Source: Christiangramia sabulilitoris
GTDB taxonomy: Bacteria; Bacteroidota; Bacteroidia; Flavobacteriales; Flavobacteriaceae
Length of the DNA: 64,000 bases
Assembly: GCF_007050985.1 (NCBI RefSeq)
Contig: NZ_VHSF01000004.1
Span: 1-64,000 of the forward strand
Direction: 5' to 3'
In this document: positions 23,483-44,333 of the stretch, piece by piece
Layout of the letters: each line of letters opens with the position of its first letter
Numbering within the stretch: the first letter of the stretch is position 1
Program-made: the position numbers and the translations under genes
Notes under the pieces: generated by a model
Told to the model about the DNA's origin: nothing
The model's input: the letters and a program-made list of their open reading frames with translations, nothing else
Databases searched by the model: none

Positions 23483-24928
23483 ATGAGATCGAATAAAATA
23501 TATAGAGAACAAAAAGAAGATCAAAAAGTGATTAGTGAAAAAAATGCAGAAGAGAGATTTAATTCTTTCGATCTGGACAATGAGACTGTTAAGCCAAGAA
23601 ACCTTAAGGGCATCATGGTTAGAGCGGCTAGTTTTTTACTCTTGCTTGGAGCTGCTTACCTGGCATTTACTTTACAAAGTGATTTCAGCCAGTATAGACT
23701 GGAGCGATTCAATTCATCCTGGGGCTTTGGATTTTTTATAGTTGCCACCGCTTTATTCGTTTTTAAAGCAGGTTTCTTTTTTTATAACCTCTTTTTGTAC
23801 TTAAGATATAAACCGGTGCAGGGAGTTGAGGATGCAAAACTACCAACCACTACGGTGATTGTTCCGGCGTATAATGAAGGGAAACAGGTTTGGTCTACCT
23901 TAATGAGTCTTGCGGAGAGTGACTATCCCGCAGAAAAACTGCAGTTACTTGCTATTGATGACGGAAGTAAAGATGATACCTGGTCCTGGATGCTGGAAGC
24001 CAAAAAGGTTTTGGGCGACAGATTAGCGATCTACCAGCAGCCGGAGAATAAAGGTAAACGTCATGCTCTATACCGTGGATTTAACCTGGGAACAGGAGAA
24101 ATTTTTGTAACCGTGGATAGTGATTCTGTAGTTGCAAAAGACACTCTGCGCAACCTGGTAAGTCCATTTGTAGTAAATGAAAAATGTGGAGCTGTTGCCG
24201 GTAACATAAGGGTTCTAAACAATGAGAAGAAAGCCTTGTTGCCAAAGATGCTGGATGTGAGTTTTGTACTTAGTTTTGAATTTGTACGCTCAGCAGAAAG
24301 TAGCCTGGAATCTGTGCTATGTACCCCGGGAGCCCTGGCAGCTTATAGAAGTGAAGCTGTATTTGCCTGTCTTCCCGAGTGGATCAACCAGACATTTATG
24401 GGGAATCCCTCAGATATTGGGGAAGACAGAGCTATGACCAATATGATCCTGAAGCAGGGATATCATGTATTGTTCCAGAGAAATGCTTATGCCTATACCA
24501 ATGTTCCTGAAAAATATACCGGTTTATATAAGATGTTCATTAGATGGGGAAGAAGTAACGTACGTGAAAACCTGGCTATGGCAAAATATGTTTTCACAGA
24601 TTTTAGAGAAGGAAGAAAACTTGGGATCAGAATATTGTTCGTAAACCAGATCCTTAAATTGATCATGAGCTACCCGGTGATCTTATTGATGTTCTTCTTT
24701 GTTTTTACGCATCCAATTCTTTTCCTGAGCTCGACGCTTTTAAGTATACTTATCTGGTCCAGTTTCCCGGTATTGTTCTATGCCAAGAGGTATAAATTAT
24801 CTGAATCCCTTTGGGCTTATTCTTATAGTCTGCTTTATACTTTCGGGTTATTCTGGATCACTCCTTATGCGATCGCCACTGCGAGCAGAAGGGGATGGTT
24901 AACCAGGGAGCTAAGTGTTAAAAAATAA
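23483..24928 (+). CDS. Processive family-2 glycosyltransferase (hyaluronan/chitin/cellulose synthase class)
   Basis: 481 residues. Two N-terminal TM helices (about 45-65 and 75-97) precede the GT-A domain. Donor-site motifs are VIVPAYNE, AIDDGSKDD and VDSDS (DxD); catalytic base in IGEDRAMT; and IRWGRSN is the QxxRW-like acceptor-site motif with RW kept. Three C-terminal TM helices would form the channel (about 385-470). This is the plan of membrane synthases that polymerise a sugar and pass it through the inner membrane. The sugar cannot be read. It begins a region of polysaccharide genes (flippase, GT4, TPR-barrel exporter, hydrolase), and ends with its own terminator. Confidence 0.88.
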   Translation: MRSNKIYREQKEDQKVISEKNAEERFNSFDLDNETVKPRNLKGIMVRAASFLLLLGAAYLAFTLQSDFSQYRLERFNSSWGFGFFIVATALFVFKAGFFFYNLFLYLRYKPVQGVEDAKLPTTTVIVPAYNEGKQVWSTLMSLAESDYPAEKLQLLAIDDGSKDDTWSWMLEAKKVLGDRLAIYQQPENKGKRHALYRGFNLGTGEIFVTVDSDSVVAKDTLRNLVSPFVVNEKCGAVAGNIRVLNNEKKALLPKMLDVSFVLSFEFVRSAESSLESVLCTPGALAAYRSEAVFACLPEWINQTFMGNPSDIGEDRAMTNMILKQGYHVLFQRNAYAYTNVPEKYTGLYKMFIRWGRSNVRENLAMAKYVFTDFREGRKLGIRILFVNQILKLIMSYPVILLMFFFVFTHPILFLSSTLLSILIWSSFPVLFYAKRYKLSESLWAYSYSLLYTFGLFWITPYAIATASRRGWLTRELSVKK

Positions 24929-25122: not shown

Positions 25123-25647
25123 ATGAGCGTAATTTGGTATGAATGTAAGGTGAAATACAGAAAAACACACGAGACAGGAGAACAGAAGGTAACTACAGAT
25201 ACCTATTTACTCGACGCGGTATCTTATACTGAAGCCGAAGCCAGGATTACTGAAGAAATGAAGGCATACACTAGTGAGGACTTCAGAATAATGAATATAA
25301 AAGTGGCTAATTTTTCAGAGGTTCATCCTTTTGAAAATTCAGACAGGTGGTTTAAATCCAAGGTTTCTTTGGTTGCCCTCGATGAGGAAAGCGGTAAAGA
25401 GAGAAAGACAAATAGGTACCTGTTGGTTCAGGCGAATGATGTAAAGGAAGCTTTTGAAAATACCACCACGGCCATGGAGGATACTATGGGCGATTATACG
25501 ATCCCTTCAATTACTGAATCGCCCATTTTAGATGTTTTCCCATATTTCACCGGGGAAGAAGAACAGTTAGAAAAATTCAACGTGCTTGAAGATGAGGATA
25601 ATCAGGAGGAAATTATTTCTGAGATAACTGAAGTCGAGGCGGGTTAA
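25123..25647 (+). CDS. DUF4494 domain protein
   Basis: 174 residues. The N-terminal 145 match the DUF4494 pattern as I know it: WYECKVKYRK, then YLLDAVSYTEAEARI, then RWFKSKVSLVALDEESGKE and LLVQANDVKEAFE. Two similar halves (residues 5-70 and 73-140) suggest an internal repeat. The acidic tail (about 145-174) is low-complexity. No signal peptide. Function unknown; the family is conserved in Bacteroidota. Its 3' end is duplicated at 44777-44893, beside decayed DNA. Confidence 0.85.
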   Translation: MSVIWYECKVKYRKTHETGEQKVTTDTYLLDAVSYTEAEARITEEMKAYTSEDFRIMNIKVANFSEVHPFENSDRWFKSKVSLVALDEESGKERKTNRYLLVQANDVKEAFENTTTAMEDTMGDYTIPSITESPILDVFPYFTGEEEQLEKFNVLEDEDNQEEIISEITEVEAG

Positions 25648-25671
25648 GTCGCAGAAAAGGTTATAGAAATA

Positions 25672-25700
25672 CAAAAAGCATCTTGTTCAGATGCTTTTTG
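25672..25700. terminator. Two-way terminator between DUF4494 and the receiver-GT2 gene
   Basis: CAAAAAGCATCT (25672-25683) pairs with AGATGCTTTTTG (25689-25700), loop of 5. Confidence 0.88.
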
Positions 25701-25735
25701 TATTATGGGTTATGATAACATTTACTTGATAGCAT

Positions 25736-26923
25736 TTAAACCGTAACCTTATTATATGCTTTATTCTTCGCTACATATAAAGACCTTTTAAAGGTATATT
25801 TTAAATAGATCTCTATTAACTGTATGCCGATTTTCATAGAATCTTTCATGGATAATTTTGAACCATCTTCATGGATCCATCTTTTTAAGGGTTGTTCACA
25901 GATGAATTTCTGCACATTCTGTTTTCCATAATAGATTTTCATGCGCATAAATACTTCTACATCAAACAGCCACTTAGTATAAAAAGGTCGGTTAAATGCT
26001 ACGCTAATAAGTTCTTTACGCATTATTTTGGCGCCGCACTGTGTATCTCTAAAAGGCATTCCCAGGATCTTGCAGATGATAAGGTTTATGGTCATGCTAA
26101 TTAGTTTCCTGGCGCTTTCCTTTGTTATATTGGCTCCCATTCTGGAGATTCTCGAACCATTTACGATCTTGAAATCACTTGTTTCCAGGGTATTTACCAG
26201 GTCATCAAAATCCTGAAGATCTGTAGAGAGGTCAGCATCGAGGAAGCCTACATAGTCAAGGTCTGGCATATTAGCCATATATTTTAAACCTTGTCTAACG
26301 GCCTCTGCTTTACCCCCATTTTTAACGCAATTAAAAATGCTTATAGAATTCTCTCTACCTACTCTTAAATTATTAAGTACCTCTAAAGTATTATCTGTGC
26401 TACCATCGTTAACGAAACACAAATGATACCCGGCATTCTTGTCTATAAATTCAAGAAATGAAGCCGATTTTAAACGCTTTTCTTCATTATAACAGGGTAT
26501 TACCACTCCAACGCACCTGCTCTGTAAGGTGGTATTCTTAATATCCTTAGTTGTTCCCCTGGTCTCTGATCCAAGAATACTTTTAACTCTGATGCAAACT
26601 TCATCCAGGCTTAAAGGTTTTTTCATGAAATCACTAATACCCAATTCAAATGCTTCGATCAAGGAATCTTGATTACGATCTCCACTTAAAACCACGATTG
26701 GAGTTTTATCAAGTAGGCCCTTTCGAATATATCTTATAACGTCCAGGCCAGAAGTTTGCGGCATATTGATATCAAGTATTAAAAGATCTGGTTTGAATTT
26801 CATAAAAAACTGGATACCTTCTTCAACATCGGTGGTGGTCACTACTTCATAACCCTGTTCTTTAAGCCTCTTTTCAAGTGGCATAAGAACTAATTGCTGG
26901 TCGTCTATGGCTAAAATTTTCAT
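25736..26923 (-). CDS. Response-regulator receiver domain fused to a GT2 glycosyltransferase
   Basis: 395 residues. Residues 1-120 are a full receiver: acidic pair DD (7-8), phospho-acceptor Asp51 in LLILDINMP, switch Ser in VVLSGD and Lys in MKKPLS. Residues about 135-370 are a GT2 of the dolichyl-phosphate-glucose/mannose synthase type: VVIPCYNEEKRL, FVNDGSTDNT, FLDADLSTD, then NGSRIS, then FRDTQCGAKIMRK and PFYTKWLFDVEVFMR. There are no C-terminal TM helices. Known: receivers usually drive DNA-binding, cyclic-di-GMP or kinase domains. A glycosyltransferase output is rare; the inference is that phosphorylation gates sugar transfer to a lipid carrier. It lies alone on the minus strand between polysaccharide genes. 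The kinase could be in the operon at 39.7-44.1 kb. Confidence 0.9.
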   Translation of the reverse strand: MKILAIDDQQLVLMPLEKRLKEQGYEVVTTTDVEEGIQFFMKFKPDLLILDINMPQTSGLDVIRYIRKGLLDKTPIVVLSGDRNQDSLIEAFELGISDFMKKPLSLDEVCIRVKSILGSETRGTTKDIKNTTLQSRCVGVVIPCYNEEKRLKSASFLEFIDKNAGYHLCFVNDGSTDNTLEVLNNLRVGRENSISIFNCVKNGGKAEAVRQGLKYMANMPDLDYVGFLDADLSTDLQDFDDLVNTLETSDFKIVNGSRISRMGANITKESARKLISMTINLIICKILGMPFRDTQCGAKIMRKELISVAFNRPFYTKWLFDVEVFMRMKIYYGKQNVQKFICEQPLKRWIHEDGSKLSMKDSMKIGIQLIEIYLKYTFKRSLYVAKNKAYNKVTV

Positions 26924-26954
26924 AACTGGTTAGTGTTAGGTTATTTTAATACTT

Positions 26955-26962
26955 CAAAAGTA
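26955..26962 (-). promoter_or_regulatory. Candidate -7 promoter box for the receiver-GT2 gene
   Basis: On the minus strand TACTTTTG fits TAnnTTTG, 32 bases upstream of the ATG at 26923. Confidence 0.4.
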
Positions 26963-27105
26963 GAGTCAGAACAGGCGATTTTATAGGATATTAGACAAAA
27001 CCGTTTATTATTGTCGGTGAATGGAAAGTTCCTGTCGTTCAATGAGTTTGCTAAAGTCTAAAGTCGTGGTACTTTTATAAATGAATTATTTACTATTATA
27101 GTAAA

Positions 27106-30100
27106 ATGCAAGAACAGACTAATAAGTACCTCTTAGTAGCCCTAATAATCGGGATTGTTTTCCACAGCTCGGGTATTTTCTTTACCCTGGAGAATACCTA
27201 TGATGCCCTTATCCATTTGTTCTTTGCAGAACATTATGCCAACAACTGGTTTGAACCCTGGAATTATAAGTGGTACACCGGTTTTACCGTAATGGGATAT
27301 CCGCCGCTAGTTCATCAGGCAATAGCTTTACTATCGTTCATAGGTGGACTTAAGTTCGGGATGTTCCTGGTGGCAATAATTGCAGTGATCTTGTTTATCA
27401 CCGGCGTGTACCGATTTTCCCTTTTGATCACGGCAAATAGAAAGGTAGCTGGATATGCTGCCATTCTTGCGGTTTTTTCCAGTTCGTTCGTTGAGACATT
27501 GCATATATTTGGGCAATTGCCAAGTATCATTGGTATTTCCCTACTATTACACACTCTGCCGGAAATCTATCTTTATATAAGAACAGGGAAGTGGCAGTTT
27601 TTCTTGCGCGCTGTTTCTTTAATAGCTGTAACGGTTACTTCGCATCATGTAACCCCAATATTCGGAATGATCTTTTTTATATTTCCTCTACTTGGAATGG
27701 TAGTAATGGACGTCGCTACCGAGCGTTCAGGAAATATCAGAAATGTGAAATTAAGTTCATTCTTAAAAAGTTTTACAAGTCTTTTAAAACGAATCCTGAT
27801 CTTTGGTTTCTCATCACTGGCGATCATTATCGTTTGTATTTTACCCTACTGGATCAATACCAAGAAAAATCCAATTACCCAGGTGCCCATACCGCATGGC
27901 AGCCGCGATAATTTTATAGAGGTAACCTCTTCCGGGCTTATATTTTTTATCATTCCATGGGGTATATTATTCTTTCTATTACCTTATATATTTTATCGGT
28001 TTTTTTCTAAGAGATTTTTATTTTTTGGTTTATCCTTCTCACTGTTGTTTATACTGGGAACCGGTGGAACCACTCCAATTCCAAGAGCAATCCTGGGTGA
28101 AACCGCCTTTAATATACTTACGCTGGACAGGTTTACGCTGTGGGCGTCTATTATGGCTTTGCCCATTTTTGGAGAGTTTGCCTACAGGTTCGCCGAGGGT
28201 GACCTCAAAAAACTTTTTCAGGAACGATTTGGATCTGTATACCATCGTCTTAGCGGCGCTTTACTGGCAGGAATCTTTCTATTTCTTACAGTATTTACCC
28301 TTACTATTGGTTCCTTTCGTCCCATGCAGCCGCAAAGTATTAAAATGTTGCCTATAGTGAATTTTCTGAACCAGGATCAACATGATCAATGGAGATTTCT
28401 TACGCTTGGGTTCGGGGATCAGATGGCCTGGCTTTCTGCACAAACCAGGGCACTAACCGTAGACGGAAATTATCATTCGGCCCGGCGTTTGCCTGAATTG
28501 ACCACACGTGCAGTGGAAAGGCTGGAAAACTCTAAATTCAGGGGATTTGAAGGAATAGGTTCATTACAGCAATTTTTATCTATACCCGAAAAATATAATC
28601 TTAAGTACATTTTCTCGAATGATAAGTTCTATGATCCTCTGCTATATTTCAGCGGCTGGCAACGCCTGCAACAACTTGAAAATGGAATTATGGTCTGGGA
28701 GAAATTAAATGTTCCACCGCTGTCCAAAGTTATAGCCATTCAGGATGTTCCGCTATTCCTAAAGATCATGTGGGGAATAATTCCCATACTAACCGTTATC
28801 ATCGCTTTTATCCTGAATATTCAGTTATTATGGATAAATACCCTGAAATCCAGGGTGCCTCTAAAGCCGGTATTCCTGATCTATAAAAATTCTTATTTCG
28901 GATTTAACAGGGGAATGTTGAACATAAATCATTTCTGGGCTTACCTTTTACTGGCCATTATTGCGGTTTCTTTGTATATGATTTATATTCAGAATAAATC
29001 TCAGGTAAGTCCCGAGAATGTCATAACGGCCTATTATGATGCGGTAGATTTTAAGGAATATGAAAGAGCTCATTCATACCTTGACCCTAAGAGCGGGAAA
29101 AGCATCTCTCAATTTATGCTTGAAGTGTCGGTAAATGATGGGATACTCAGCTCATACGCTAAATTAGACAGTATTTATGTTGAATCTAAAAATCTCAATG
29201 ATACTGTTGCTCATGCAGTAGTTCATACCTCATGGGTAACGCCGCTGGAGGTGATTTACCAAACTTATGATCATGATCTCATAAGGCGGGGTAATTCATG
29301 GTATATCAAAGCATCGCAAGGAAATCCAGATCTTCCCCCAGATCAATTATTTTCAGGTAATGAAACCCGGTTTTATAATCATGGACGCAGAATGGTGACA
29401 ACCCAGCAAACACATCACGAGGACGTTCTACGGCAACCCGTACTTGAGGTCCTTACGGCAAAACTGGTTAAATTCAAGGGTAGATATAGCATTGTAGGTG
29501 AAATACAGAATGTAGATTATGTCCCGGCAGATGTTGTAATAAAGGGAACCTTGTACGATGATAAGAACAGAGAGCTTGCAACTTACAATGCCGGCCAGGT
29601 AATGAAACATAAACTATTACCAAAAGAAGTAACCGCTTTTAGGGTAGATTTTGAGGGAATTGCCTGGCTGGGAGAGGGCGAAAAAATTCCTGAAACCTTT
29701 GATCCAAATATATTCACCCCGGTAGATCTCTCCTCTAAACCGGCAAGTTTTAACCTTCAATGCGCCGGGAATGTCGCAACAACAGACCTCTATAAGAATA
29801 TTAATTTACATGATCTGGAATTTGATGGTGATTCTATTAATGGGAGTCTTTTTAATTTTGGTGTGCAGGAGGTGACCATCCCGCAGGTTATTTATTCCTA
29901 TTATGATAAAAATTATGACATATTATGGGTAGACCATCAATACGTCAATGATGGCATCAGGGTACAACGAAAACGCTCCTTTAACCGGGAGCCCGAGAAC
30001 CTCAGTAAACTATCAGTAATAAACAGCTCCATGAACAATATTTTCGTGAACGGTTTGCCTAATGCACAGATCGCCGGCAAAAGTGTACCGGTAAGAAGAA

Positions 30101-30195
30101 AGGACCTTTTACCTGCGACCATTCAGGAAATATCAGGCCTGGGTTATGAATACTTAAAAATAGATCTTAACAGTTATATAGGGAATCCTAAATGA
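27106..30195 (+). CDS. Giant GT-C-like polytopic membrane protein with NTF2-like and C-terminal soluble domains
   Basis: 1029 residues. The first 600 hold about 11-13 TM helices. The first loop YDALIHLFFAEHYANNW and the YKWYTGFTVMGYPPL segment are like GT-C or PTPS_related (6-pyruvoyl-tetrahydropterin synthase related) membrane proteins, where an early acidic/His loop is catalytic. Another TM helix (about 607-627) leads to an NTF2-like module (about 635-735: ENVITAYYDAVDFKEYERAHSYL). The last 270 residues are two beta-rich domains (ILEVLTAKLVKFKGRYSIVGEIQNV; FNLQCAGNVATTDLY). It overlaps the next gene by 4 bases (ATGA). It probably adds or handles a sugar at the periplasmic side for the nearby polymer; no donor is known. 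Confidence 0.7.
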   Translation: MQEQTNKYLLVALIIGIVFHSSGIFFTLENTYDALIHLFFAEHYANNWFEPWNYKWYTGFTVMGYPPLVHQAIALLSFIGGLKFGMFLVAIIAVILFITGVYRFSLLITANRKVAGYAAILAVFSSSFVETLHIFGQLPSIIGISLLLHTLPEIYLYIRTGKWQFFLRAVSLIAVTVTSHHVTPIFGMIFFIFPLLGMVVMDVATERSGNIRNVKLSSFLKSFTSLLKRILIFGFSSLAIIIVCILPYWINTKKNPITQVPIPHGSRDNFIEVTSSGLIFFIIPWGILFFLLPYIFYRFFSKRFLFFGLSFSLLFILGTGGTTPIPRAILGETAFNILTLDRFTLWASIMALPIFGEFAYRFAEGDLKKLFQERFGSVYHRLSGALLAGIFLFLTVFTLTIGSFRPMQPQSIKMLPIVNFLNQDQHDQWRFLTLGFGDQMAWLSAQTRALTVDGNYHSARRLPELTTRAVERLENSKFRGFEGIGSLQQFLSIPEKYNLKYIFSNDKFYDPLLYFSGWQRLQQLENGIMVWEKLNVPPLSKVIAIQDVPLFLKIMWGIIPILTVIIAFILNIQLLWINTLKSRVPLKPVFLIYKNSYFGFNRGMLNINHFWAYLLLAIIAVSLYMIYIQNKSQVSPENVITAYYDAVDFKEYERAHSYLDPKSGKSISQFMLEVSVNDGILSSYAKLDSIYVESKNLNDTVAHAVVHTSWVTPLEVIYQTYDHDLIRRGNSWYIKASQGNPDLPPDQLFSGNETRFYNHGRRMVTTQQTHHEDVLRQPVLEVLTAKLVKFKGRYSIVGEIQNVDYVPADVVIKGTLYDDKNRELATYNAGQVMKHKLLPKEVTAFRVDFEGIAWLGEGEKIPETFDPNIFTPVDLSSKPASFNLQCAGNVATTDLYKNINLHDLEFDGDSINGSLFNFGVQEVTIPQVIYSYYDKNYDILWVDHQYVNDGIRVQRKRSFNREPENLSKLSVINSSMNNIFVNGLPNAQIAGKSVPVRRKDLLPATIQEISGLGYEYLKIDLNSYIGNPK

Positions 30196-31370
30196 TATAT
30201 CAGCACATTAAAATCGCAGTACTCTTTATTAGCCTGCTCTTTATATCCTCAACAAAACAATTAAATGTCGGGGCGAACGAACTACCTGTCACATCAAGAG
30301 CCGGGGAGGAGATCATTCTACAATTTAATGATATAAGTCCAAAAGCCCGTCTGTTTTTGATCTCCCCTTATGGCAAGACCCTGCTTAAACCGCAAAAGTG
30401 TGAGGATAAAACCTGTTATAAGATACCTGAATTCATTGCAAATAAATCTGGGGTAATCTCCTGGAAAGTAGAGGGAAGGCAAGGAGAGATCCTGATCCTG
30501 CCTGATGAAGGACCAGAGAAAATAGAAACTTATTTTGGGCCTCGAAGTATCCAGGCCGGAGACGGTGATTTTTCTATGCTGGTAGCTATTCCACTGGATA
30601 AATATGACAATCCACTGGAAGATGGAACCAGCGTGCAAACTCAGGAATATTATGCTGAGGTGATTCAAAAAGATAGTTTAAGCATGAAGAATATGATCGC
30701 ATGGAAGAATTTCCCGACTAGAGAAAAGGCGGGGAAAATTCTGTTATCTGCTAGCAGTAGACATGTTTTTAGTAAAGAACTTAGCAGCAGGATTTATCCT
30801 TCAGTACCGGCGAATTTTCAAATTTCTTTGAATAGGATACATGATTATGCAGATGGTAACCAGGTGGCCACACTTTCAACTTCAATCTTGAAGGATCGAT
30901 TTGGTAATATAGTGAGTGATGGTACTCTGGTAGACTTTCTAATTTCTACAGAAACGGGGAAAAAATTAAAGACCACGGCGTCAACGATCAATGGTGTGGC
31001 TACTGCAGGGGTGCTGCATCCGGAGAAACCAAATACCTGGAAGATCAGGGCGGTAGTGAACGGTATAGCAGATAGCGATCTAATCGAAATAAAATTCAAA
31101 CCGGTTCTCAATGACTTTGAAGTGATCATAGAACCCGAATCAAAAAGCGTCAAAGTAGGCCCCCTGCAAAGTTTTCTGGATCAACAAATCCCTGAAGGTA
31201 CCACTGTAACTTTAACCATTCTGAGAAAGAATAAAATAAATTTCAAAATGCAGGAAGCTACAAAGAAGGCTTATGCCATCTTTAACCTTCCCGAGGAACA
31301 GGAATTTTTAGAAAATGATATCTTTAAGGTCGAAACCCTTGGCATTACCAAATCTCTCAAAATACCTTAA
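30192..31370 (+). CDS. Secreted Ig-like (Big_1/invasin-like) domain protein
   Basis: 392 residues. Signal peptide (IAVLFISLLFISSTKQL), then beta-sandwich domains: one at about 25-110 with a possible disulfide (QKCEDKTCYKI), one at about 120-210 (FGPRSIQAGDGDFSMLVAIPLDKYDNPLEDGT), a clear Big_1-like one at about 215-305 (QVATLSTSILKDRFGNIVSDGTLVDFLIS) and a last one. The phrase D-K/R-x-G/D-N-x-x-x-D-G-T is the Big_1 hallmark and occurs twice. It overlaps genes on both sides (ATGA upstream, TAATG downstream), so the three proteins are made together. A scaffold or binding role in the periplasm is likely; no enzyme motif was seen. Confidence 0.7.
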   Translation: MIYQHIKIAVLFISLLFISSTKQLNVGANELPVTSRAGEEIILQFNDISPKARLFLISPYGKTLLKPQKCEDKTCYKIPEFIANKSGVISWKVEGRQGEILILPDEGPEKIETYFGPRSIQAGDGDFSMLVAIPLDKYDNPLEDGTSVQTQEYYAEVIQKDSLSMKNMIAWKNFPTREKAGKILLSASSRHVFSKELSSRIYPSVPANFQISLNRIHDYADGNQVATLSTSILKDRFGNIVSDGTLVDFLISTETGKKLKTTASTINGVATAGVLHPEKPNTWKIRAVVNGIADSDLIEIKFKPVLNDFEVIIEPESKSVKVGPLQSFLDQQIPEGTTVTLTILRKNKINFKMQEATKKAYAIFNLPEEQEFLENDIFKVETLGITKSLKIP

Positions 31371-32920
31371 TGACCCAAAAATTAAGCAGAAATCTTTATC
31401 GTGCTGGTATTGTACTTAGTTTTTTAATTGTAAATGCCGCGGTTTTATACGGAATTGGCTCGATCTGGTCTTATCTAAATACCGGGGCAGACAGGTCTTC
31501 TATGTTAAAAACCGGGGTCAAAGCAGAAAAATTATATGTACCATCCATAGATTGGGATACTACCTCTTATGAAGGCCGAATTATGGAACCACAAAGTCTT
31601 AAGGAAATAGAACGGGATTACCTGAATGCGTGGTATGTGAAAAACCTGGCCTATAAGAATAATGAAGTACTTAGAATTGATGATTATTATACAGACAGTG
31701 CCCGGGTAAATATCTACAGGAACATTGCCTTTAATAAAGAAGCTGATCTGAATTTCGAGTCTACCAGTCTTGAACATCATCCCAAACTGAATTTCTACAG
31801 TGCAGATGGACAGATGGTAGTTTTTAAGGACCGTAATGTCCTGGAGTACACTCACAATTTTGAGCAGGATACATTTACTGGTACCAGCGTAGATACGGCA
31901 TCCTACCAGGTAATGATGTTGCTGGAAGATGGATTCTGGAGAATAAGGCATTTAAAACGCCTGCAACCGGAATTAACCGGGATTGACACAACCCTGAATC
32001 CTGAATGGCAGGTAAAGGGTAGATCAGTTTATTTAAGAGACAGCCTTTATTCTATCAAAGGAATAAATTATTATCCCAAGGAAACACCCTGGGATATGTA
32101 TGGAGATGAGTTTGATATACAAGTAATCGAGAGAGATTTTGAACTTATTCGTTCTGCAAATTTAAATACAGTACGCATTTTTATACCCTACGAAGGATTT
32201 GGGAAAAATAAGCTTGTCGAAAATAAATTAGAAAAACTGGAGAAGGTTTTAAATGTTGCTGAAGCCCAGCAACTCAAAGTAATACTTACTTTTTTTGATT
32301 TTTACGGGGATTATTCGGTCCTGGGATGGACCCAGACCCATTCTCACGCCAGGAAACTATTAAAGAGATTTAAAGATCATCCTGCTATCATGGCTTTCGA
32401 TATAAAAAATGAACCAGATCTTGATTTTGATAATAGGGGGAAGGACCTGGTGACCAATTGGCTTAGATATACCATAGATCAGTTTAGGCGCTTGGCACCG
32501 GGAAAATTGGTCACAATAGGCTGGGCCAAACCTGAAAATGCTCATTTGCTAAAAGAAGAGGTAGATATGATCTCATTTCACTATTATGGCGATCCATCAG
32601 ATTTTGAGAATATCTATACCAGGCTCTCTTCAAAAATTTCCAAGCCTTTGATCCTGGAAGAATTTGGAATATCTTCTTATGACGGTATCTGGAAACCATT
32701 TTCCGGAGATGAGGAGGAGCAGGCATTATATCATCAAAAAATGCAAGCGTTTCTTGCTAAAGAAAAGCTCGCATTTTTATCCTGGACCTTATATGATTTT
32801 AAGGAAATTCCCGGCAGGGTGGTAGGGCCTTTACCCTGGCGCCGGGCTTTCCAGAAAGAATTTGGTTTTTTTGATTATTCCGGCAATCCAAAGCCGGCCT
32901 TTAAGTATATCTCAAATTGA
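31370..32920 (+). CDS. Membrane-anchored TIM-barrel glycoside hydrolase (GH5/GH2/GH39-like)
   Basis: 516 residues. One N-terminal TM helix (AGIVLSFLIVNAAVLYGIGSIW) with the rest outside the cytoplasm. Residues about 70-195 look NTF2-like (ERDYLNAWYVKNLAYKN ... MMLLEDGFWRIRHLKR), like the module in the 27106 gene product. Residues about 220-510 are a (beta/alpha)8 clan GH-A enzyme: GINYYPKETPW, TVRIFIPYEG, AFDIKNEPD (acid/base Glu) and LILEEFGIS (nucleophile Glu). Periplasmic hydrolases encoded in exopolysaccharide operons (BcsZ, PslG, PelA, AlgL) trim the polymer, and the same is likely here. The 3' end overlaps the convergent GT4 gene by 20 bases. Confidence 0.85.
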   Translation: MTQKLSRNLYRAGIVLSFLIVNAAVLYGIGSIWSYLNTGADRSSMLKTGVKAEKLYVPSIDWDTTSYEGRIMEPQSLKEIERDYLNAWYVKNLAYKNNEVLRIDDYYTDSARVNIYRNIAFNKEADLNFESTSLEHHPKLNFYSADGQMVVFKDRNVLEYTHNFEQDTFTGTSVDTASYQVMMLLEDGFWRIRHLKRLQPELTGIDTTLNPEWQVKGRSVYLRDSLYSIKGINYYPKETPWDMYGDEFDIQVIERDFELIRSANLNTVRIFIPYEGFGKNKLVENKLEKLEKVLNVAEAQQLKVILTFFDFYGDYSVLGWTQTHSHARKLLKRFKDHPAIMAFDIKNEPDLDFDNRGKDLVTNWLRYTIDQFRRLAPGKLVTIGWAKPENAHLLKEEVDMISFHYYGDPSDFENIYTRLSSKISKPLILEEFGISSYDGIWKPFSGDEEEQALYHQKMQAFLAKEKLAFLSWTLYDFKEIPGRVVGPLPWRRAFQKEFGFFDYSGNPKPAFKYISN

Positions 32921-34097
32921 GCTTAGAATTCGTGATGTTCTTAAATTCCTCAAGATATAGCTGGGTTACCTTTTCCATTGGTAAACTGCAGGCGGCTTTA
33001 TAATTAACCTCTCCTATTCTTCTGCGGTAGAGGTCATCTTTAATGATTTTTCCCAGAGAATGAGCGAGCGAATCTACATTTCCGGGTTTAAAAAATTCTC
33101 CAGTATAACCTTCTTCTTCCACTAAAAGTGCCAGGTCACCAAGACTGGGCATTACCACGGCTTTACCATAGCTGCCGGCCTGATGCAGTACTCCGGAACT
33201 ACCTGTGGTAGAAGTGTAAGGAAATACTACCACTGTACTTTCACCAAATATCTTTGGAACATCCTCTTCCTGCACATATCCGGTGAAATGCAGACCTTTC
33301 ACATTTTTATATTTCTCCCTCATTTCAGCAAGGTATCCCGGGGTATTGGGGCTATCTGTACCGGCAATTACAATTTCTACCTCTTCGCTGGTTGTTTTCC
33401 GCAACTTTATAACGGCCTCGATAAGTATCTCTACTCTCTTATAGGTTCCAAATTTGCCAAAGGTCATAATCTTCTTCGGCCCTGCAGGCAGATTAAAATC
33501 GGGCTCTGCAGGAGTTTCGAAGGAGCCGTGAGGGATTTGAATTATATTGGATGCACTATATTTTTCCTGTATGATCTCTACATATTTTCCAATAGTGAGG
33601 GCTACCGTATCTGCCTTTAAAATAACCCTGGTTAACAGGGTGCCAATGCTGTTGAAAATACGCTTCAGGAATTTGTTATCAGTAAAACCGGCATTTCCCA
33701 GATCTACCTGTTCCAAAATATTGTGTAAAAGAACGATATTAGGAATACCCTTAAGTCTTAAAAGTAAAGGAAGAAAAAGCCCCAGGGCTGCAGGTATTTT
33801 TTTATCACCAAATTTCATAAACTGTAAGTTGAATAATACTGCATCTGCTTGTGACTCTCTAATTGATCTATAAATGCTATATATGTTTTTATAGCTATTG
33901 AATTTCCAGCATTCCTTTACAGTAATCTTTGTATTACCTGAATCGAAATCCAGTTGTTTTTCTTCTACGGTCTCATCAGTAATTAATATTAGTTCTTCAA
34001 TTTCTTCTTTCCGGGCAAAGTTTTTGGCCAGGTGATATCCATATTCATTCAGGGTTACTTTACTGGGCGGAAAGGCGGTTACTAAGGCAAGTTTCAT
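32901..34097 (-). CDS. Family-4 glycosyltransferase
   Basis: 398 residues, GT-B fold. N-domain starts MKLALVTAFPPSK; the C-domain has ILEAVIKLR-like FGKFGTYKRVEILIEAVIKL, HFTGYVQEEDVPKIF and the donor-site stretch VVVFPYTSTTGSSGVLHQAGSYGKAVVMPSLGDLALLV (here Gly-Ser-Ser replaces the common E-x7-E start). No TM helix: cytoplasmic, retaining transferase. It follows a flippase gene by 87 bases and so resembles the GT4-flippase pair PelF-PelG of Pel polysaccharide loci, though sequence alone does not show orthology. Confidence 0.85.
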   Translation of the reverse strand: MKLALVTAFPPSKVTLNEYGYHLAKNFARKEEIEELILITDETVEEKQLDFDSGNTKITVKECWKFNSYKNIYSIYRSIRESQADAVLFNLQFMKFGDKKIPAALGLFLPLLLRLKGIPNIVLLHNILEQVDLGNAGFTDNKFLKRIFNSIGTLLTRVILKADTVALTIGKYVEIIQEKYSASNIIQIPHGSFETPAEPDFNLPAGPKKIMTFGKFGTYKRVEILIEAVIKLRKTTSEEVEIVIAGTDSPNTPGYLAEMREKYKNVKGLHFTGYVQEEDVPKIFGESTVVVFPYTSTTGSSGVLHQAGSYGKAVVMPSLGDLALLVEEEGYTGEFFKPGNVDSLAHSLGKIIKDDLYRRRIGEVNYKAACSLPMEKVTQLYLEEFKNITNSKLNLRYT

Positions 34098-34184: not shown

Positions 34185-35435
34185 TTAGCTTCGGTGAGAG
34201 GTTTTTTTGATATGGTAAAAGAAATAACCAATTTGAATGGCTAGTAAGGTTGTCATTACCAATATCTGAATCTCCACGATCTTTTCCAGACTGGAGTGCT
34301 CCAGATAAATCATCGCTAACTGAAGTATTCCAAAAATACCAGATATCAATACAGGCAGATATTTATCCAGACTTAAAAAATAATAGACGAAGACATTTGC
34401 CAGTGCAAATAGCGAACTGGCCATGGCATACTTCCAGAGCAGACCAGAGACTTCAAGATATGCATTCCCAAAGAGCATACTTATGATCAATTCAGGAACC
34501 AGCAGGTTAGTTAATATAACCAGGATACTTAAAGTGGCGACCATACCCAGGTATTTGAAGAATAACCTTGTAGTATCTTTATTTTCCTTGTGTCGTTGTA
34601 CCACTTTGGGTAGCAACAACATGACAAACATCCAGGCTACAAAGTAGACGCCACGGCCTATCAAAGCCAGTGAAGCATATAATCCTGCTGAATGAGTGTC
34701 AAAAAAATGCTTCACCAATAAAATATCACCATTATTGATCAGGATCTGGGTGAGTTCATAAAAGGCCGTTACCAGGATAAACTTTTTTAAATGAGAGATA
34801 TCGGTAGAACTAATGGCCGGTAATATTTTAGTTTTGATCCTTTTAAAAGGAAATATCCCGGGGAATAAAGAAATAAAAATCCCCAGCGCAACGAGTTCAG
34901 AACTTTGAAAGGGAAGCATCAAAATAAAAGCCAGGGTTAAGAATAGTCGGCTCAGCATTTCTGCCTGGTAGGTTATAGAAAGGTTTATAAACTGCTGTTC
35001 TCCCTGAAAGTAGCCCCTGTTGACACTCATTAAGAAATAAACCGGGATCCCCATTCCAAAAATCCTGAACATTCCGGAGGATTCGGTATTAAACCACAGT
35101 TGCAATTTTCCGGCCATAAGGATTACCAGTAGGCCTGCGATGCACCCCAGGTACAGACTGAATTTCCTGGAATATTTTAAAAAGGCCTCTTTTTTATCTG
35201 TATCGAAACTTCCGGTAAATTTTGCCACACTCAATTGCAGAGTCATAGCGATAAAAGAAAGAATCAAAAGAAAGGTGACCAGGATAGCAGCATCTGCAAA
35301 TGCCTGAGGTCCCAGTAACCTTCCCAGGGCAAGATTGTATAAGTAGTTACCCACGTTCACGACCATTGCACTGATCATGAAGACCTGTGAGGCTTCAATT
35401 TTTAGGTTATATCTGGCAATTCTTAAGGTGGACAT
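34185..35435 (-). CDS. Polysaccharide flippase (MOP superfamily, Wzx/PelG-like)
   Basis: 416 residues, about 12 TM helices. The N-terminus (VFMISAMVVNVGNYLYNLALGRLLGPQAFADAAILVTF) is the usual opening of Wzx-type oligosaccharide flippases, with G-R-L-L-G-P. It ends in short basic residues. It would move lipid-linked sugar units across the inner membrane. Second gene of a minus-strand unit STAS-flippase-GT4, 14 bases after the STAS gene. Confidence 0.85.
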   Translation of the reverse strand: MSTLRIARYNLKIEASQVFMISAMVVNVGNYLYNLALGRLLGPQAFADAAILVTFLLILSFIAMTLQLSVAKFTGSFDTDKKEAFLKYSRKFSLYLGCIAGLLVILMAGKLQLWFNTESSGMFRIFGMGIPVYFLMSVNRGYFQGEQQFINLSITYQAEMLSRLFLTLAFILMLPFQSSELVALGIFISLFPGIFPFKRIKTKILPAISSTDISHLKKFILVTAFYELTQILINNGDILLVKHFFDTHSAGLYASLALIGRGVYFVAWMFVMLLLPKVVQRHKENKDTTRLFFKYLGMVATLSILVILTNLLVPELIISMLFGNAYLEVSGLLWKYAMASSLFALANVFVYYFLSLDKYLPVLISGIFGILQLAMIYLEHSSLEKIVEIQILVMTTLLAIQIGYFFYHIKKTSHRS

Positions 35436-35449
35436 AGGTTTTCGGTTTA

Positions 35450-35761
35450 TCAGGAGGTTACCTTCATTGTGTTATAAGACATCAAATCTACTCCTGCGCC
35501 CAGAAAGGCTCCGCGTATTCTTCTGTTCTCATCACCAACAAAATTTACTACTCGTCCTCTGCGTGCAGCATACATGATTAAAGCTCTGAATTCGAATACG
35601 CTGCCTATATCCATCCCGTCAAGTTGCTCCAGGCTAATTCTCACATAATGTTTCATTTTGAGAATGACTTCAAAATATTTTCTAACTTGAAAAGAATTAG
35701 AGGAAGAAAGTCTTCCGCTGATTTCAAAAATCCCGTTGTTTTCTTTGATCTTTAATGCCAT
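35450..35761 (-). CDS. STAS-domain protein (anti-anti-sigma-like)
   Basis: 103 residues, single domain: FEISGRLSSSNSFQVRKYFEVIL, ISLEQLDGMDIGSVFEFRALIMYAARRGRVVNFVG. The usual phospho-acceptor stretch D-S-S-G reads DIGS (51-54): the usual phospho-Ser place is Gly53, though Ser54 follows. So it may not be switched by phosphorylation in the usual manner. First gene of the flippase/GT4 unit. A precedent is SypA of Vibrio fischeri, a STAS protein in a polysaccharide locus that controls biofilm. Confidence 0.8.
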   Translation of the reverse strand: MALKIKENNGIFEISGRLSSSNSFQVRKYFEVILKMKHYVRISLEQLDGMDIGSVFEFRALIMYAARRGRVVNFVGDENRRIRGAFLGAGVDLMSYNTMKVTS

Positions 35762-35908
35762 GATTTCTGGTTTTTAAATTAATTACTAATGCTAATATCT
35801 TATGTATTTCAACCAACCTGCGATCTCTTTCGACGGATGGCAGCTTTCTGTAGATGAATTATCGCTAAAGTGTTTTTAACTTGCCTTAACTAAACTAAAC
35901 CTACCTGA

Positions 35909-37969
35909 ATGATAAATTTTAAAATGCGTTTGCTGTGTGTTCTCTTTACTATTACAGGATTTTTCATGCAGGGGCAGGAAATGCAGAAAGGCTTTGAGCA
36001 TCTAGAAGCCGGGGAATTTTCCCAGGCAGAGATATTCTTCAGCAAGATCCTTAAGGAGCATCCCGAAAATAAAACGGCAAGACTTTGCTATGGCAGGGCA
36101 GTAGGCCTAAGTAGTGATCCAAACAAGGCGGTGAAAATCTTTGAAGATCTATTGATAGATTTTCCAGATGATCTTGAAGTAAAGCTTAATTACGCCGAAT
36201 CACTCTTATGGAGTAGGCAGTACCCTGAGGCAGAAGTCTATTATTCTGTTTTGCTGGAAGAGAATCCTGAAAACTTTTCGGTTCTGCTGGGATATGCGAA
36301 TACCCTTAGCAACCTTAAAAAATATAAATCGGCTACCAAGTGGGTAGAAAAAGCATTGAATTTATCGCCCGGGAATCCTAACGCGTTAAATTCCTTGAAA
36401 TATATCAGGTTAGGTTACGCCAATCGGTTGCTACAGGAACGTCAATATGATCTGGCAATAGGTTTGCTGGATGATAACCTTAGGGAATTCGAAAATGATC
36501 GGGAAAGCCTTTTAAACAAAGCCAATATTTATCTTATTCTTAAAAATTCTGATGCAGCCATAGATGTTTATAAACAGCTTGCCTTGGATTCCCGGGATAG
36601 TATTCAGGCGCTTACTGGTATTTCCCTGGCATATCATATAGCTAAACGCGAAAAGGATGCTTTAAAATATGCGACGTTGGCCCGGCAAATGGCTAAAGAT
36701 AGTAACGACAGTATCTCAAGGCTGATGGCAGCCGAACGATATATACAGGCCCTGATCTGGAATCATAAGTATTCCAGGGCTGAAGATCAGATCGAACACC
36801 AGCTGGAACTGTATCCGGAAAAACCCTGGGTCCTGGCCTTAGCAGCCAGCCTGGGTATGTATACGGGAGATTTCAAAAAAAGTATTAATAATTATAATCA
36901 GATTCTGGAAATAGATTCTGCCTCCTTTGACGGTAATCTAGGGATAGCGAATGCGTATTTTGCCCGAGGCGAAATCAAAGAAGCCATGGATTATGCAGAA
37001 CAAACTTTAAGTTTTTATAAAAATCAACAGGATGCAGAACAACTGCTGCAAAAAATAGAATTCGGTTACAGGCCTATGCTGGAAGAAAACCTAAGTTTCT
37101 CTTTCGATAATGGAGATAACCAGGCTTTCGCCGCCGCAACCACCGTCCGCCTTCCACTTTCCACCAAACTGGAAGTACTGGGGGGATATACTTATCGCAA
37201 GACGAGGAATACAAGATCTGGCCTCGAGGCGAATTCAGATTACTTTAATCTATCAGCCTCTTACAAGATTATTCCTTCCGTGAAATTCAGGGTTAACACA
37301 GGGCTTATAAATGCCAGATCTGTGGAAACCGATTATACTAATCTTACGGGGGAGGTTGCTGCTCAGATCAAACCCTTCATGCGGGATGATCTTGAAATTG
37401 GTTATCGCAGGGATTTACAGGATTTTAATGCTGAACTCTTAAATCGTAAAATAGCGGGTAACCATCTTTTCCTAACTAATAATTATACAACAAGGTATGG
37501 TCTTGGCTGGTATTTGCAATATATGCACACCGAGCAAAGTGATGATAATAGCCGGAAGCTATTGTTTACATCTTTATACTATAGTATATTAAAAAAGCCG
37601 CTTTTAAAAGGCGGAATTAATTATCAATATATAAGCTTTGAAAAGCGTATGCCTGAATTATATTTTAGCCCTGAAAAATTTCAGGCTGCAGAGATCTTTA
37701 TGAACCTTATTAGTGATGATGAGGACAAAGCTTTTAATTATGATCTTACTGCGGCGGCCGGATATCAATTTATCGAAGATGGTGACGGCCAGCCCACCTA
37801 CCGTTTACAGGCCAGGGCGGGGTATAATATAAGCCAGCGGTTTATCGGTGGGGTATATGCTACCCATAGTAATATCGCATCGGCAACGGTAGCAGGTTTT
37901 ACCTTTACGGAATTTGGTATCAACCTAAAATGGTTCTTTAAAGCGAAACCTCTGTTCAATTTGAAATAG
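35909..37969 (+). CDS. TPR protein with C-terminal YaiO-like outer-membrane beta-barrel
   Basis: 686 residues. Signal peptide (LLCVLFTITGFFMQGQ). Residues about 25-385 are at least nine TPR-like helix pairs (AEIFFSKILKEHPENKTARLCYGRAVGL; NPENFSVLLGYANTLSNLKKYKSATKWVEKAL; DGNLGIANAYFARGEIKEAMDYAEQTL). Residues about 390-686 are a strand-rich barrel (LEVLGGYTYRKTRNTRS ... FTFTEFGINLKWFFKAK). The TPR-then-barrel order is that of export porins BcsC, PgaA and the AlgK/AlgE and PelB systems; the barrel here is of the YaiO class. Likely role: scaffold and outer-membrane exit for the polymer made by nearby genes. Divergent from the STAS gene, with 147 bases shared. Confidence 0.85.
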   Translation: MINFKMRLLCVLFTITGFFMQGQEMQKGFEHLEAGEFSQAEIFFSKILKEHPENKTARLCYGRAVGLSSDPNKAVKIFEDLLIDFPDDLEVKLNYAESLLWSRQYPEAEVYYSVLLEENPENFSVLLGYANTLSNLKKYKSATKWVEKALNLSPGNPNALNSLKYIRLGYANRLLQERQYDLAIGLLDDNLREFENDRESLLNKANIYLILKNSDAAIDVYKQLALDSRDSIQALTGISLAYHIAKREKDALKYATLARQMAKDSNDSISRLMAAERYIQALIWNHKYSRAEDQIEHQLELYPEKPWVLALAASLGMYTGDFKKSINNYNQILEIDSASFDGNLGIANAYFARGEIKEAMDYAEQTLSFYKNQQDAEQLLQKIEFGYRPMLEENLSFSFDNGDNQAFAAATTVRLPLSTKLEVLGGYTYRKTRNTRSGLEANSDYFNLSASYKIIPSVKFRVNTGLINARSVETDYTNLTGEVAAQIKPFMRDDLEIGYRRDLQDFNAELLNRKIAGNHLFLTNNYTTRYGLGWYLQYMHTEQSDDNSRKLLFTSLYYSILKKPLLKGGINYQYISFEKRMPELYFSPEKFQAAEIFMNLISDDEDKAFNYDLTAAAGYQFIEDGDGQPTYRLQARAGYNISQRFIGGVYATHSNIASATVAGFTFTEFGINLKWFFKAKPLFNLK

Positions 37970-38502: not shown

Positions 38503-39582
38503 TTAACCGAAGCTTGCACCAAATTTTTCCAGTACAGTTTGCCGAATCACTTTTATCTCCTGTTCTTTTTGTTTAGGGACTATTACCAGCACATTATCTT
38601 CTTCCAGGATCATATAATCCTTGAGACCGTCTATATAAACGACCTTGCCGGCCTGGGTTCTAATGATATTACCGGAGGCGTGTTCCGGAATAAACCTGGA
38701 ATTAACAACTGTATTGGATGCGGCATCCTGGGGGAGTTCCCCCTGAATGCTACACCAGGTACCTAGATCATTCCAGGAAAAAGTAGCAGGTATTACCTTT
38801 ACGGTACTTGCTTTTTCTATAATACCAAAGTCAATAGAGATATCCTGGGCCTTGTGGAAATTTTCCTCCAGGAATGAGAACTCTTCACAGGTGTTCAGGA
38901 AACTGAATCCATTTAAGAATAGTTGATACATTTCAGGCAAAAACTGCTGGAAGCTTTGCAGGATCGTATCTGTTCTCCAGGCAAATATTCCAGAGTTCCA
39001 TAGATAATCACCCTCCTGGAGAAATCTTTTAGCATTTTCCAGGTTGGGCTTTTCGGTGAATCTTTTTACGTGAAAAATATTGCTGTGCGCCGAATCATCA
39101 TATTGGATATAACCATATCCGGTATTAGGAGAGGTGGGAGGTATGCCGAAGGTGACCAGATCATCGCTCTGTTCAATTTCATTAAAAGCCAGTTCAATAT
39201 CATGTATGAATTTATCTTCCTGGGGGATCCAGTGATCACTTGGAGCGACCAGCATTTTTGCCTCAGCATCTTTTTTCCAGATCTTTAAAGCCGCCAGAAG
39301 TATACATGGCGCAGTATTGCGCATGGCCGGTTCGCAAACAATATTAGCCGGCGTTACTACCGGCAGTTGCTCAAGAACAGTAGCTTCATATATCTTATTG
39401 GTAAGTATAAAAATATGTTCCTTAGGAACTACTTTTTGCAGGCGGGTAAAGGTGGCCTGGATAAGAGTTTGGCCACAACCAAGAATATCCTGAAATTGTT
39501 TCGGGTTCTCTGCGGTACTAACCGGCCAGAACCGACTTCCCACTCCTCCTGCCATGATTACGGCATAATTGTGATTTTTCAT
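38503..39582 (-). CDS. manC: Mannose-1-phosphate guanylyltransferase
   Basis: 359 residues, normal for the single-domain form (no phosphomannose isomerase domain). Nucleotide site MAGGVGSRFWPVS and ENPKQFQDI; LVAPSDHWI; FTEKPNLENA with WNSGIFAW (sugar site); C-terminal part with a short left-handed beta-helix-like tail (VVNSRFIPEHASGNII). It makes GDP-mannose, the donor for mannose and fucose polymers, and so fits the supply side of the neighbouring polysaccharide genes. Monocistronic, minus strand. Confidence 0.93.
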   Translation of the reverse strand: MKNHNYAVIMAGGVGSRFWPVSTAENPKQFQDILGCGQTLIQATFTRLQKVVPKEHIFILTNKIYEATVLEQLPVVTPANIVCEPAMRNTAPCILLAALKIWKKDAEAKMLVAPSDHWIPQEDKFIHDIELAFNEIEQSDDLVTFGIPPTSPNTGYGYIQYDDSAHSNIFHVKRFTEKPNLENAKRFLQEGDYLWNSGIFAWRTDTILQSFQQFLPEMYQLFLNGFSFLNTCEEFSFLEENFHKAQDISIDFGIIEKASTVKVIPATFSWNDLGTWCSIQGELPQDAASNTVVNSRFIPEHASGNIIRTQAGKVVYIDGLKDYMILEEDNVLVIVPKQKEQEIKVIRQTVLEKFGASFG

Positions 39583-39706
39583 TGCTTAAGGTTTTACCAT
39601 GCGGTGATTAGAATGATAAAGATATAAGCTTGCTAGTCTGAAGATTTTAAATATCGTCAGGCTGCGATTTTCTTAAGATGAATGTTGAATTACTATGGTT
39701 AACCGA

Positions 39707-40414
39707 TCAAAGAAGGTTCAGTCTTTTCATTAGTTCAGGACGATTACTTCGGCTAACCGGAATCACATCTTTCTCGATAAGAACTGAATTATCTTCGATA
39801 TCAATGATCTTCTTGGTATTGATGATAAAAGAACGATGGATCTTTAGAAATATATCCTGGGGTAATTTTTCTTCTATTTTCTTTAAGGTAGAGTGCACCG
39901 TGTAATTTTTTCCGAAGGTTTTAATAGTGATATAATCACCCTTTGCTTCGATCAGGTAAATACTGGAGATATCAATTTTTATCAGCCTTCGGTCTATATT
40001 TACATATAGGTCATTATCTGTCTTATTCAGGTCAGACTCTACCTCTGGTTTGGACGAGGAAGCTTTCGAGCTCAGCGCCTTTTGCACGGCTTTATCAAAC
40101 CTTTCCTGTGTAATGGGCTTCACCAGGTAATCTACGATACAATCATATTCAAACGCTTCTATGGCAAAACTTTTATCTGAAGTGGTAAGTATGACATTAG
40201 GAGGATTTTTCAAAGTCTGGATAAAATCAAAACCTGTAAAATCTGGCATATGAATGTCTAGAAAAATAAGGTCTGCAGAGTTCTGGTTCAGGAATTTTAT
40301 AGCCTGCATGGCATTGGGGAATTCCTGTTCCATTTCTACATGCTTATTGTTTTCAATAAGTTGTTGAATGATCAATCTGGCGGTAGCCTCATCATCAATT
40401 ATAAGACATTTCAT
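39707..40414 (-). CDS. LytTR-type response regulator
   Basis: 235 residues. Receiver (1-115) with phospho-acceptor Asp in LIFLDIHMPDF, switch Thr in ILTTSDKS and Lys in LVKPIT; then a LytTR DNA-binding domain (about 135-233: IDISSIYLIEAKGDYITIKTFGKNYTVHSTLKKIEEKLP, FLKIHRSFIINTKKI). Last gene of the five-gene H-NOX operon, 11 bases after the Hpt gene. Expected to bind DNA after receiving phosphate from the relay. Targets unknown; the polysaccharide genes next door are candidates. Confidence 0.9.
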   Translation of the reverse strand: MKCLIIDDEATARLIIQQLIENNKHVEMEQEFPNAMQAIKFLNQNSADLIFLDIHMPDFTGFDFIQTLKNPPNVILTTSDKSFAIEAFEYDCIVDYLVKPITQERFDKAVQKALSSKASSSKPEVESDLNKTDNDLYVNIDRRLIKIDISSIYLIEAKGDYITIKTFGKNYTVHSTLKKIEEKLPQDIFLKIHRSFIINTKKIIDIEDNSVLIEKDVIPVSRSNRPELMKRLNLL

Positions 40415-40425
40415 GAAGTTAGATT

Positions 40426-40746: not shown

Positions 40747-40769
40747 AATCGATATTTTTATATCCTGAC

Positions 40770-44090: not shown

Positions 44091-44333
44091 AAGTGGTTCG
44101 TAAGGCTTTAATCCTTTAAAGGTGCGATAATATAGTAGTGATTTGTAAAAGCTTCGATTAAATCAATTCAAGTGTCGGCAGAATGCAGGTAAGTTTCGAT
44201 GAATGGATCTCGAGAAGTCTTTGCCGCCCTGTATTTTATTTGAATCTAATTACCACGAAATTTTAAACTATTTAAATCATTCCTTACATTTTTATTTTCC
44301 CCGTGCTTCAACCTAAACCATAGCTTAGTATTT

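Follow-up and report, generated by a model that had tools for sequence, protein, structure and literature searches.

The Fusion Gene and Its Locus

The window, by which we mean the whole 64,000-nucleotide stretch of Christiangramia sabulilitoris DNA that was analyzed, contains on its minus strand, at 25736–26923, a gene that encodes a protein of 395 residues in a single ATG-to-stop frame. Residues 3–113 match the Pfam family Response_reg (86.6 bits, cut-off 30.2) and residues 140–305 match Glycos_transf_2 (69.2 bits, cut-off 23.3), and the protein is thus a real fusion of a response-regulator receiver and a family 2 glycosyltransferase (GT2), as originally predicted. The receiver domain (residues 1–117; 26573–26923, minus strand) has the full phosphorylation site that had been claimed for it, comprising D7, D8, D51, S80, and K102, with the codon for Asp51 at 26771–26773 (minus strand). 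It is joined by a variable linker (residues 118–137; 26513–26572, minus strand), in which residues 118–136 have a mean identity of ∼19% among relatives, to the GT2 domain (residues 138–375; 25799–26512, minus strand). This domain resembles GtrB, ArnC, and dolichol-phosphate mannose synthase (DPMS) and keeps the expected DXD motif as Asp229-Ala-Asp231 (codons 26231–26239, minus strand). The AlphaFold2 model comprises two folded domains connected by linker residues 120–135 at pLDDT values below 50; with a mean pLDDT of 79.6 and a pTM of 0.58, the relative placement of the domains is not to be read from it.

Searched against the sequences of solved structures, the GT half matches sll0501 (GtrB; 6.3e-8), ArnC (1.7e-6), and DPMS (9.8e-6), all GT2 enzymes and its best matches, and a Foldseek search with the model of the fusion places ArnC at rank 1 and GtrB at rank 7. 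The fold matches further include glucosyl-3-phosphoglycerate synthase, at rank 46; the cellulose-synthase-like family PF13641 scores 20.5 bits, under its cut-off of 27. GtrB, ArnC, and DPMS have membrane segments and no receiver; in contrast to GtrB and ArnC, the GT of the fusion has no evident transmembrane helix, and the model has one long C-terminal helix (359–393). The sequence and fold matches indicate that the GT is probably a GtrB/DPMS-like polyprenyl-phosphate-sugar synthase with presumptive sugar and lipid substrates.

The fusion gene is separated by a shared divergent promoter gap (26924–27105) from a gene for a 1029-residue membrane protein (27106–30195, plus strand), a probable GT-C transferase and the conserved partner of the GT slot. 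Beyond it are the locus-conserved genes for an Invasin_D3-like protein, below the Pfam cut-off (30192–31370, plus), a glycoside hydrolase with a GH5 (Cellulase) match (31370–32920, plus), a GT4-type glycosyltransferase (Glycos_transf_1; 32901–34097, minus), and a Wzx-like polysaccharide flippase (Polysacc_synt_3; 34185–35435, minus). A STAS-like protein, below the Pfam cut-off (35450–35761, minus), is encoded between the flippase and the likewise locus-conserved gene for a TPR protein with a weak PgaA-like match (35909–37969, plus), and an NTP_transferase gene of the sugar nucleotidyltransferase type follows (38503–39582, minus). The five-gene phosphorelay that had been noted near the fusion occupies 39707–44090, all on the minus strand: a LytTR response regulator (39707–40414), an Hpt phosphotransfer protein with H56 as its likely site (40426–40746), a PAS histidine kinase that lacks a receiver and has H584 as its likely site (40770–43136), an H-NOX sensor with H102 and the sequence YYSER at 133–137 (YxSxR; 43120–43677), and a single-domain receiver (43677–44090).

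Sixty stretches were compared, 48 around fusions (from 46 genomes) and 12 around GT-only genes. The gene for the 1029-residue protein is on 41 of the 48 fusion stretches and 11 of the 12 GT-only stretches, and it adjoins the GT gene divergently in 37 of these 41 and in all 11. The Invasin_D3-like, GH5, GT4, and Wzx genes are on 41, 41, 42, and 41 of the 48 fusion stretches, respectively, and the TPR gene is on 28, many stretches ending short of its position. The description of the surroundings as a polysaccharide locus is supported. In the 199 sampled genomes of the family (Flavobacteriaceae), the gene for the 1029-residue protein occurs in 54, each of which also has the fusion (43 genomes) or a GT-only homologue (11 genomes). 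One fusion genome, G077, lacks it; the two genes are on separate contigs in G196 and G164, and also in G048, where the fusion is at the end of a contig. A NodC/PgaC-like GT2 (23483–24928) and a DUF4494 gene (25123–25647) were considered as parts of the system, but this is not supported, since a search of the 60 stretches around relatives at E 1e-8 detected neither. With a permissive threshold, 34 of 80 loci show a relative of the STAS-like gene, and its product is a possible further regulatory layer.

The 1029-residue protein has no Pfam match. Its best Foldseek matches are the oligosaccharyltransferase-complex chains 8b6l_I (6.3e-4) and 8agb_A (7.2e-4), which we take to be the STT3 subunit, obtained with a low-confidence model of mean pLDDT 60.8 and at TM-scores of 0.22–0.34. 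These matches suggest a GT-C enzyme that uses a lipid-linked sugar. The likeness of this protein to oligosaccharyltransferase chains, together with that of the GT half to makers of lipid-linked sugars, is the basis of the pathway proposed below.

Distribution, Receiver Conservation, and Receiver-less Equivalents

Matches to the fusion at E ≤ 1e-40 are present in 76 of the 199 family genomes, the genome of the window included. Classified by hand, 44 of the 199 (again with that of the window) encode full-length fusions, the best copies being 56–66% identical to the protein of the window and those of G062 and G106 being cut by contig ends. Beyond these 44, G113 and G117 have two further full-length matches of 41% identity, and in the other 30 of the 76 genomes the match spans the GT part only. 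In a sample of the phylum, 12 of 395 genomes pass 1e-55, of which 11 (that of the window included) belong to the family and one lies outside it. A scan of genome contigs gave 551 confirmed relatives, and the best 80 of them come from Christiangramia, Salegentibacter, Zunongwangia, Robertkochia, Winogradskyella, Maribacter, Zobellia, Polaribacter, and other genera. Outside the family, Portibacter lacus has a fusion of 63% identity with the locus present (the sequences of L139 and L093 are the same). Its fusion nests among Flavobacteriaceae rows, so horizontal transfer or contamination is the likely explanation. Because the fusion is conserved among relatives, full length in 44 of the 199 family genomes and with intact sites across many genera, a frame error joining two genes, which the original prediction had raised against itself, is excluded, and an artefact of this kind or an accidental join without function is left with a vanishingly small probability.

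Receiver conservation was assessed in 56 fusion ORFs that score more than 60 bits to the receiver and more than 80 bits to the GT, taken from the 60 stretches and the window. D7, D51, K102, and P103 are each present in 56 of 56, D8 in 53, and S80 in 54, with Thr in one more. In five of the 56, many catalytic residues of the GT are gone whereas D51 and K102 are retained; the numbers of changed residues among 18 inspected GT sites are 11 in L091 (9439–10575), 8 in L092 (9448–10590), 13 in L073 (3426–4376), which has also lost D8 and S80, 12 in L096 (6912–8003), and 7 in L099 (4556–5626). Among 63 active rows, a few of which represent the same genome twice, identity in the GT equals or exceeds that in the receiver in 98% of pairs, with means of 0.717 and 0.598, respectively. 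This order is reversed when L091, L092, and L096 are compared with their nearest active rows (receiver 0.65, 0.63, and 0.56 versus GT 0.38, 0.40, and 0.36); in L073 and L099 the reversal is not clear. In three paralogues, therefore, the receiver has been conserved while the enzyme drifted, a pattern of substitution that points to a constraint on the receiver of its own.

Two kinds of small gene occur in some of the loci. (i) Sixteen genes of 115–180 codons encode only the first half of a GT2 fold. Fourteen are near a fusion (L056, L057, L064, L066, L068, L071, L072, L076, L078, L082, L091, L133, L148, and L191) and two are in the GT slot beside the gene for the 1029-residue protein (L083, 19138–19554, and L209, 9062–9604). 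By eye, 15 of the 16 products lack a DXD motif and that of L091 has DVD; no half-GT gene was found in the window. (ii) A separate receiver of 123 residues is encoded directly beside an intact fusion in L068 (4279–4650), L133, L153, L154, and L184, which represent four genomes since L068 and L184 count as the same one; a survey of 80 loci showed it in 4. The protein of L068 is 54% identical over 116 residues to the fused receiver of the window. This small receiver accompanies the fusion and does not replace the fused domain.

Relatives with the two domains in separate genes had been envisaged as a finding that would count against the fusion; what occurs in 11 genomes is a homologous GT2 without a receiver in the slot of the fusion, and the receiver is therefore an add-on. 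No similar separate receiver was found in the 17–20-kb stretches of these 11 loci, and a search at E 1e-5 for one standing in for the fused domain (L101–L111) gave none except two 249-residue proteins at 24.2 and 23.3 bits. In a GT tree of 101 rows, built by a quick method with no bootstrap, the 69 fusion rows are split from all others by a branch of support 99, the placement of the long branches of the decayed rows being unsure; the fusion may thus have a single origin. A quick-method tree of the 1029-residue protein, with 66 rows, requires five changes to account for the 11 receiver-less loci, four of them forced by well supported branches, which argues that the occupant of the slot has changed between the two enzymes several times. 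Judged from this tree, enzymes with and without a receiver seem to have been exchanged repeatedly in the same slot, and the switches may reflect either exchange or the loss of different members of a tandem pair, of which G077 has an example. Since the slot has switched in this way, receiver control is not essential to the pathway as such, and the receiver-less loci, with the same locus and step and no switch, are the best available natural control.

Promoter Repeats and the H-NOX Relay

When the gaps between the fusion and the gene for the 1029-residue protein from 25 relatives and the window were aligned, a direct repeat of CATTCGTCTACA-like half-sites with a period of 21 was apparent, the only one of 20 offsets clearly above shuffled sequences (8.7 s.d., the next being 1.7). 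In the window it is at 27012–27044 (minus strand) and is a candidate LytTR-type operator. A scoring matrix built from the 25 relatives, with the window left out, ranks this site second in the 64 kb (24.8 bits), after a second copy at 35828–35860 (minus strand; 26.2 bits) in the divergent gap between the STAS and TPR genes; the best score in ten 3-mer-shuffled windows was 20.6 bits. A possible third copy, 90 bp upstream of the nucleotidyltransferase gene (39673–39705, minus strand), is tentative, its 16.8 bits being within the shuffled range, and a weak copy of 6.2 bits is 83 bp upstream of the relay operon (44173–44205, minus strand). A looser first pattern gave five matches in the window, a number reached in 16 of 100 shuffles and so not above the chance level, and its only exact match was 27012–27044. 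Genome-wide, a pattern drawn to admit both window sites had nine matches with up to two mismatches in 3.2 Mb versus five for a reversed control, and its only exact matches were those two sites. Several weak matches to the matrix are also present in a repetitive stretch of a large ORF (1416–2528). A simple scan of 25600–27150 for sigma-70 promoters and terminators performed no better than on shuffled sequence.

On 27 of the 48 fusion stretches a repeat of at least 15 bits is present within 160 bp upstream of a fusion; the 21 that lack one in this position comprise 13 with such a repeat only elsewhere and 8 with none. In the 11 GT-only loci the repeat is upstream of the GT gene in eight, elsewhere in one, and absent in two. 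Some of the scanned genomes also contributed rows to the matrix, so these counts are not independent. In 20 of 59 stretches a reversed matrix gave 1 hit versus 30 at 15 bits and 0 versus 18 at 20 bits. More independent evidence comes from the promoter of the relay, which was examined in 2.6-kb stretches upstream of H-NOX from 20 chosen genomes, ten with the gene for the 1029-residue protein and ten without it. The top hit was 70–97 bp before the first relay gene in 19 (the three weakest scoring 8.8, 11.4, and 12.5), G071 being the exception. Two fusions away from the gene for the 1029-residue protein, that of L053 and the decayed one of L092, also have a relay-type repeat upstream.

LytTR binding sites have been described as two direct repeats of 9–11 nucleotides with 11–13 nucleotides between them, or as 9-bp repeats spaced by 10–13 bp (PMC4847170, PMC11347149). 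The repeat of the window, paired direct repeats of period 21, or about two helical turns, in a promoter gap, has this operator layout, and LytTR binding is predicted at its CATTCGTCTACA-like half-site. This layout, together with the recurrence of the repeat at the relay promoter, makes the LytTR protein of the relay the likely binder and the fusion gene probably a member of its regulon, as are probably the fusions of L053 and L092. The prediction that phosphorylation controls a sugar transferase rather than transcription therefore requires amendment; with repeats at the fusion promoter, such control would probably act in addition to transcription.

H-NOX is encoded in 49 of the 54 genomes with the gene for the 1029-residue protein versus 28 of the 145 without it (Fisher 8e-21, kinship ignored), and of these 49, 40 have it no more than 40 kb from that gene, one far away, and eight on another contig. 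Of the 44 fusion genomes 40 encode H-NOX, as do 10 of the 11 GT-only genomes; in G077 and G113 the relay is near a fusion that has no GT-C gene with it. The proximity of relay and fusion that had been pointed out is thus real, but receiver-less loci are linked to the relay equally, so proximity was rejected as proof of the target and linkage alone does not establish the fused receiver in that role. Nor does the repeat do so, given that eight of the 11 GT-only loci have it upstream of the GT gene. The kinase at 40770–43136, originally proposed as the phosphate source, contains no receiver domain, and its gene neighbors those for a single receiver and an Hpt protein; on the usual layout of such a relay, the direct donor would be Hpt rather than the kinase.

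Proposed Mechanism, Alternatives, and Known Systems

The account that we favor, with a confidence only somewhat better than even, is that the fusion is a lipid-sugar synthase carrying a receiver and working with a GT-C partner, in a locus that the H-NOX relay controls through LytTR and probably through Asp51. The GT2 would load a sugar onto a lipid carrier. This lipid-sugar would then serve the GT-C-like membrane protein, whose gene lies on the other side of the shared promoter gap, in making a surface polysaccharide. The signal is envisaged to pass from H-NOX to the kinase, the single receiver, Hpt, and finally LytTR, acting at the repeats, and Hpt would probably also phosphorylate Asp51 of the fusion. 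The fused receiver resembles the OmpR/PhoB type and conserves D98, E108, and R112, presumably the phosphorylation-dependent pairing face of that group, and GtrB was solved as a tetramer, according to the title of its structure entry. Pairing of receivers could therefore favor assembly of the GT domains, much as PorX is paired by phosphorylation (PMC11320123), and phosphorylation would by this route bring them together and raise, rather than inhibit, their activity.

A somewhat unlikely alternative is that the phosphate on the fused receiver comes from a kinase whose gene is elsewhere in the genome, with the H-NOX relay acting on the locus through transcription alone. The equal linkage of the relay to loci with and without the receiver fits this account, as does the likeness of the fused receiver to OmpR/PhoB-type receivers. 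So do its conserved D98, E108, and R112, since their equivalents are G, D, and K in the single receiver and D, R, and A in LytTR, so that neither relay receiver has all three. It is less easily reconciled with L053 and L092, where fusions away from the GT-C gene still have a relay-type repeat, and with G077 and G113, where the fusion is near the relay in the absence of that gene. We are more doubtful that the receiver serves mainly for assembly or docking, whether phosphorylated or not, and joins the GT to membrane or pseudo-GT partners. Retention of the receiver in paralogues with a decayed GT, the half-GT genes that 16 of the examined loci have near a fusion or within the GT slot, and the 123-residue receivers at five loci of four genomes all speak for docking, but the phosphorylation residues are kept, and not the fold alone, which pure docking would not need. 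A further possibility, to which we likewise assign a low probability, is that active and decayed receiver-GT2 proteins assemble with half-GTs and free receivers; phosphorylation from the NO relay would govern the lipid-sugar output of such mixed complexes, on top of LytTR control of the same genes. It is also improbable that the GT2 is not a polyprenyl-phosphate synthase at all and that a growing chain, or some other small acceptor, receives its sugar directly. The want of evident transmembrane helices and the fold match to glucosyl-3-phosphoglycerate synthase are in its favor, but lipid-phosphate-sugar synthases rank first for the GT half in both sequence and fold, and the GT slot faces a probable GT-C enzyme.

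Control of polysaccharide enzymes is commonly ascribed to gene expression or to cyclic-di-GMP. The favored account would place a phosphate switch within a probable lipid-sugar-loading step in many genera of one family. Because the fusion recurs in that family, direct control of a sugar enzyme by a signal can be tested, and the operator repeats together with the receiver define a testable two-level circuit with gene and enzyme under one relay.

A search of the literature for the Flavobacteriaceae locus returned no paper, and among listings on receiver-glycosyltransferases only the archaeal case was found and none with this GT2 type, although an earlier bacterial mention is possible. Fusions of the archaeal kind (MTH_548 type, Methanobacteriaceae) are published for three genera and, like the fusion of the window, combine a receiver and a glycosyltransferase in one chain, as REC-BcsA-like proteins (PMC5847659). 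Their GT is cellulose-synthase-like (PF13641; PMC5847659), whereas that of the window belongs to PF00535, is lipid-phosphate-sugar-synthase-like, and is found in Flavobacteriaceae. PorX, also a Foldseek match, comes from the same phylum as the fusion, being a Bacteroidota protein with a receiver and an enzymatic output, and phosphorylation pairs its receivers (PMC11320123); its output is a phosphodiesterase of the alkaline phosphatase superfamily tied to type IX secretion (PMC11320123), in place of the GT2 of the fusion. In proteobacterial H-NOX kinase pathways, as in the relay of the window, an NO sensor is encoded beside a kinase, and these pathways influence biofilm or exopolysaccharide (PMC8738867). 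Outputs described for them include enzymes of cyclic-di-GMP metabolism, quorum sensing, and the syp regulon, and no fused glycosyltransferase is among these (PMC8738867). Receivers with enzymatic outputs are already known; for a receiver on a GtrB/DPMS-like GT2, no report was found in the literature searched.
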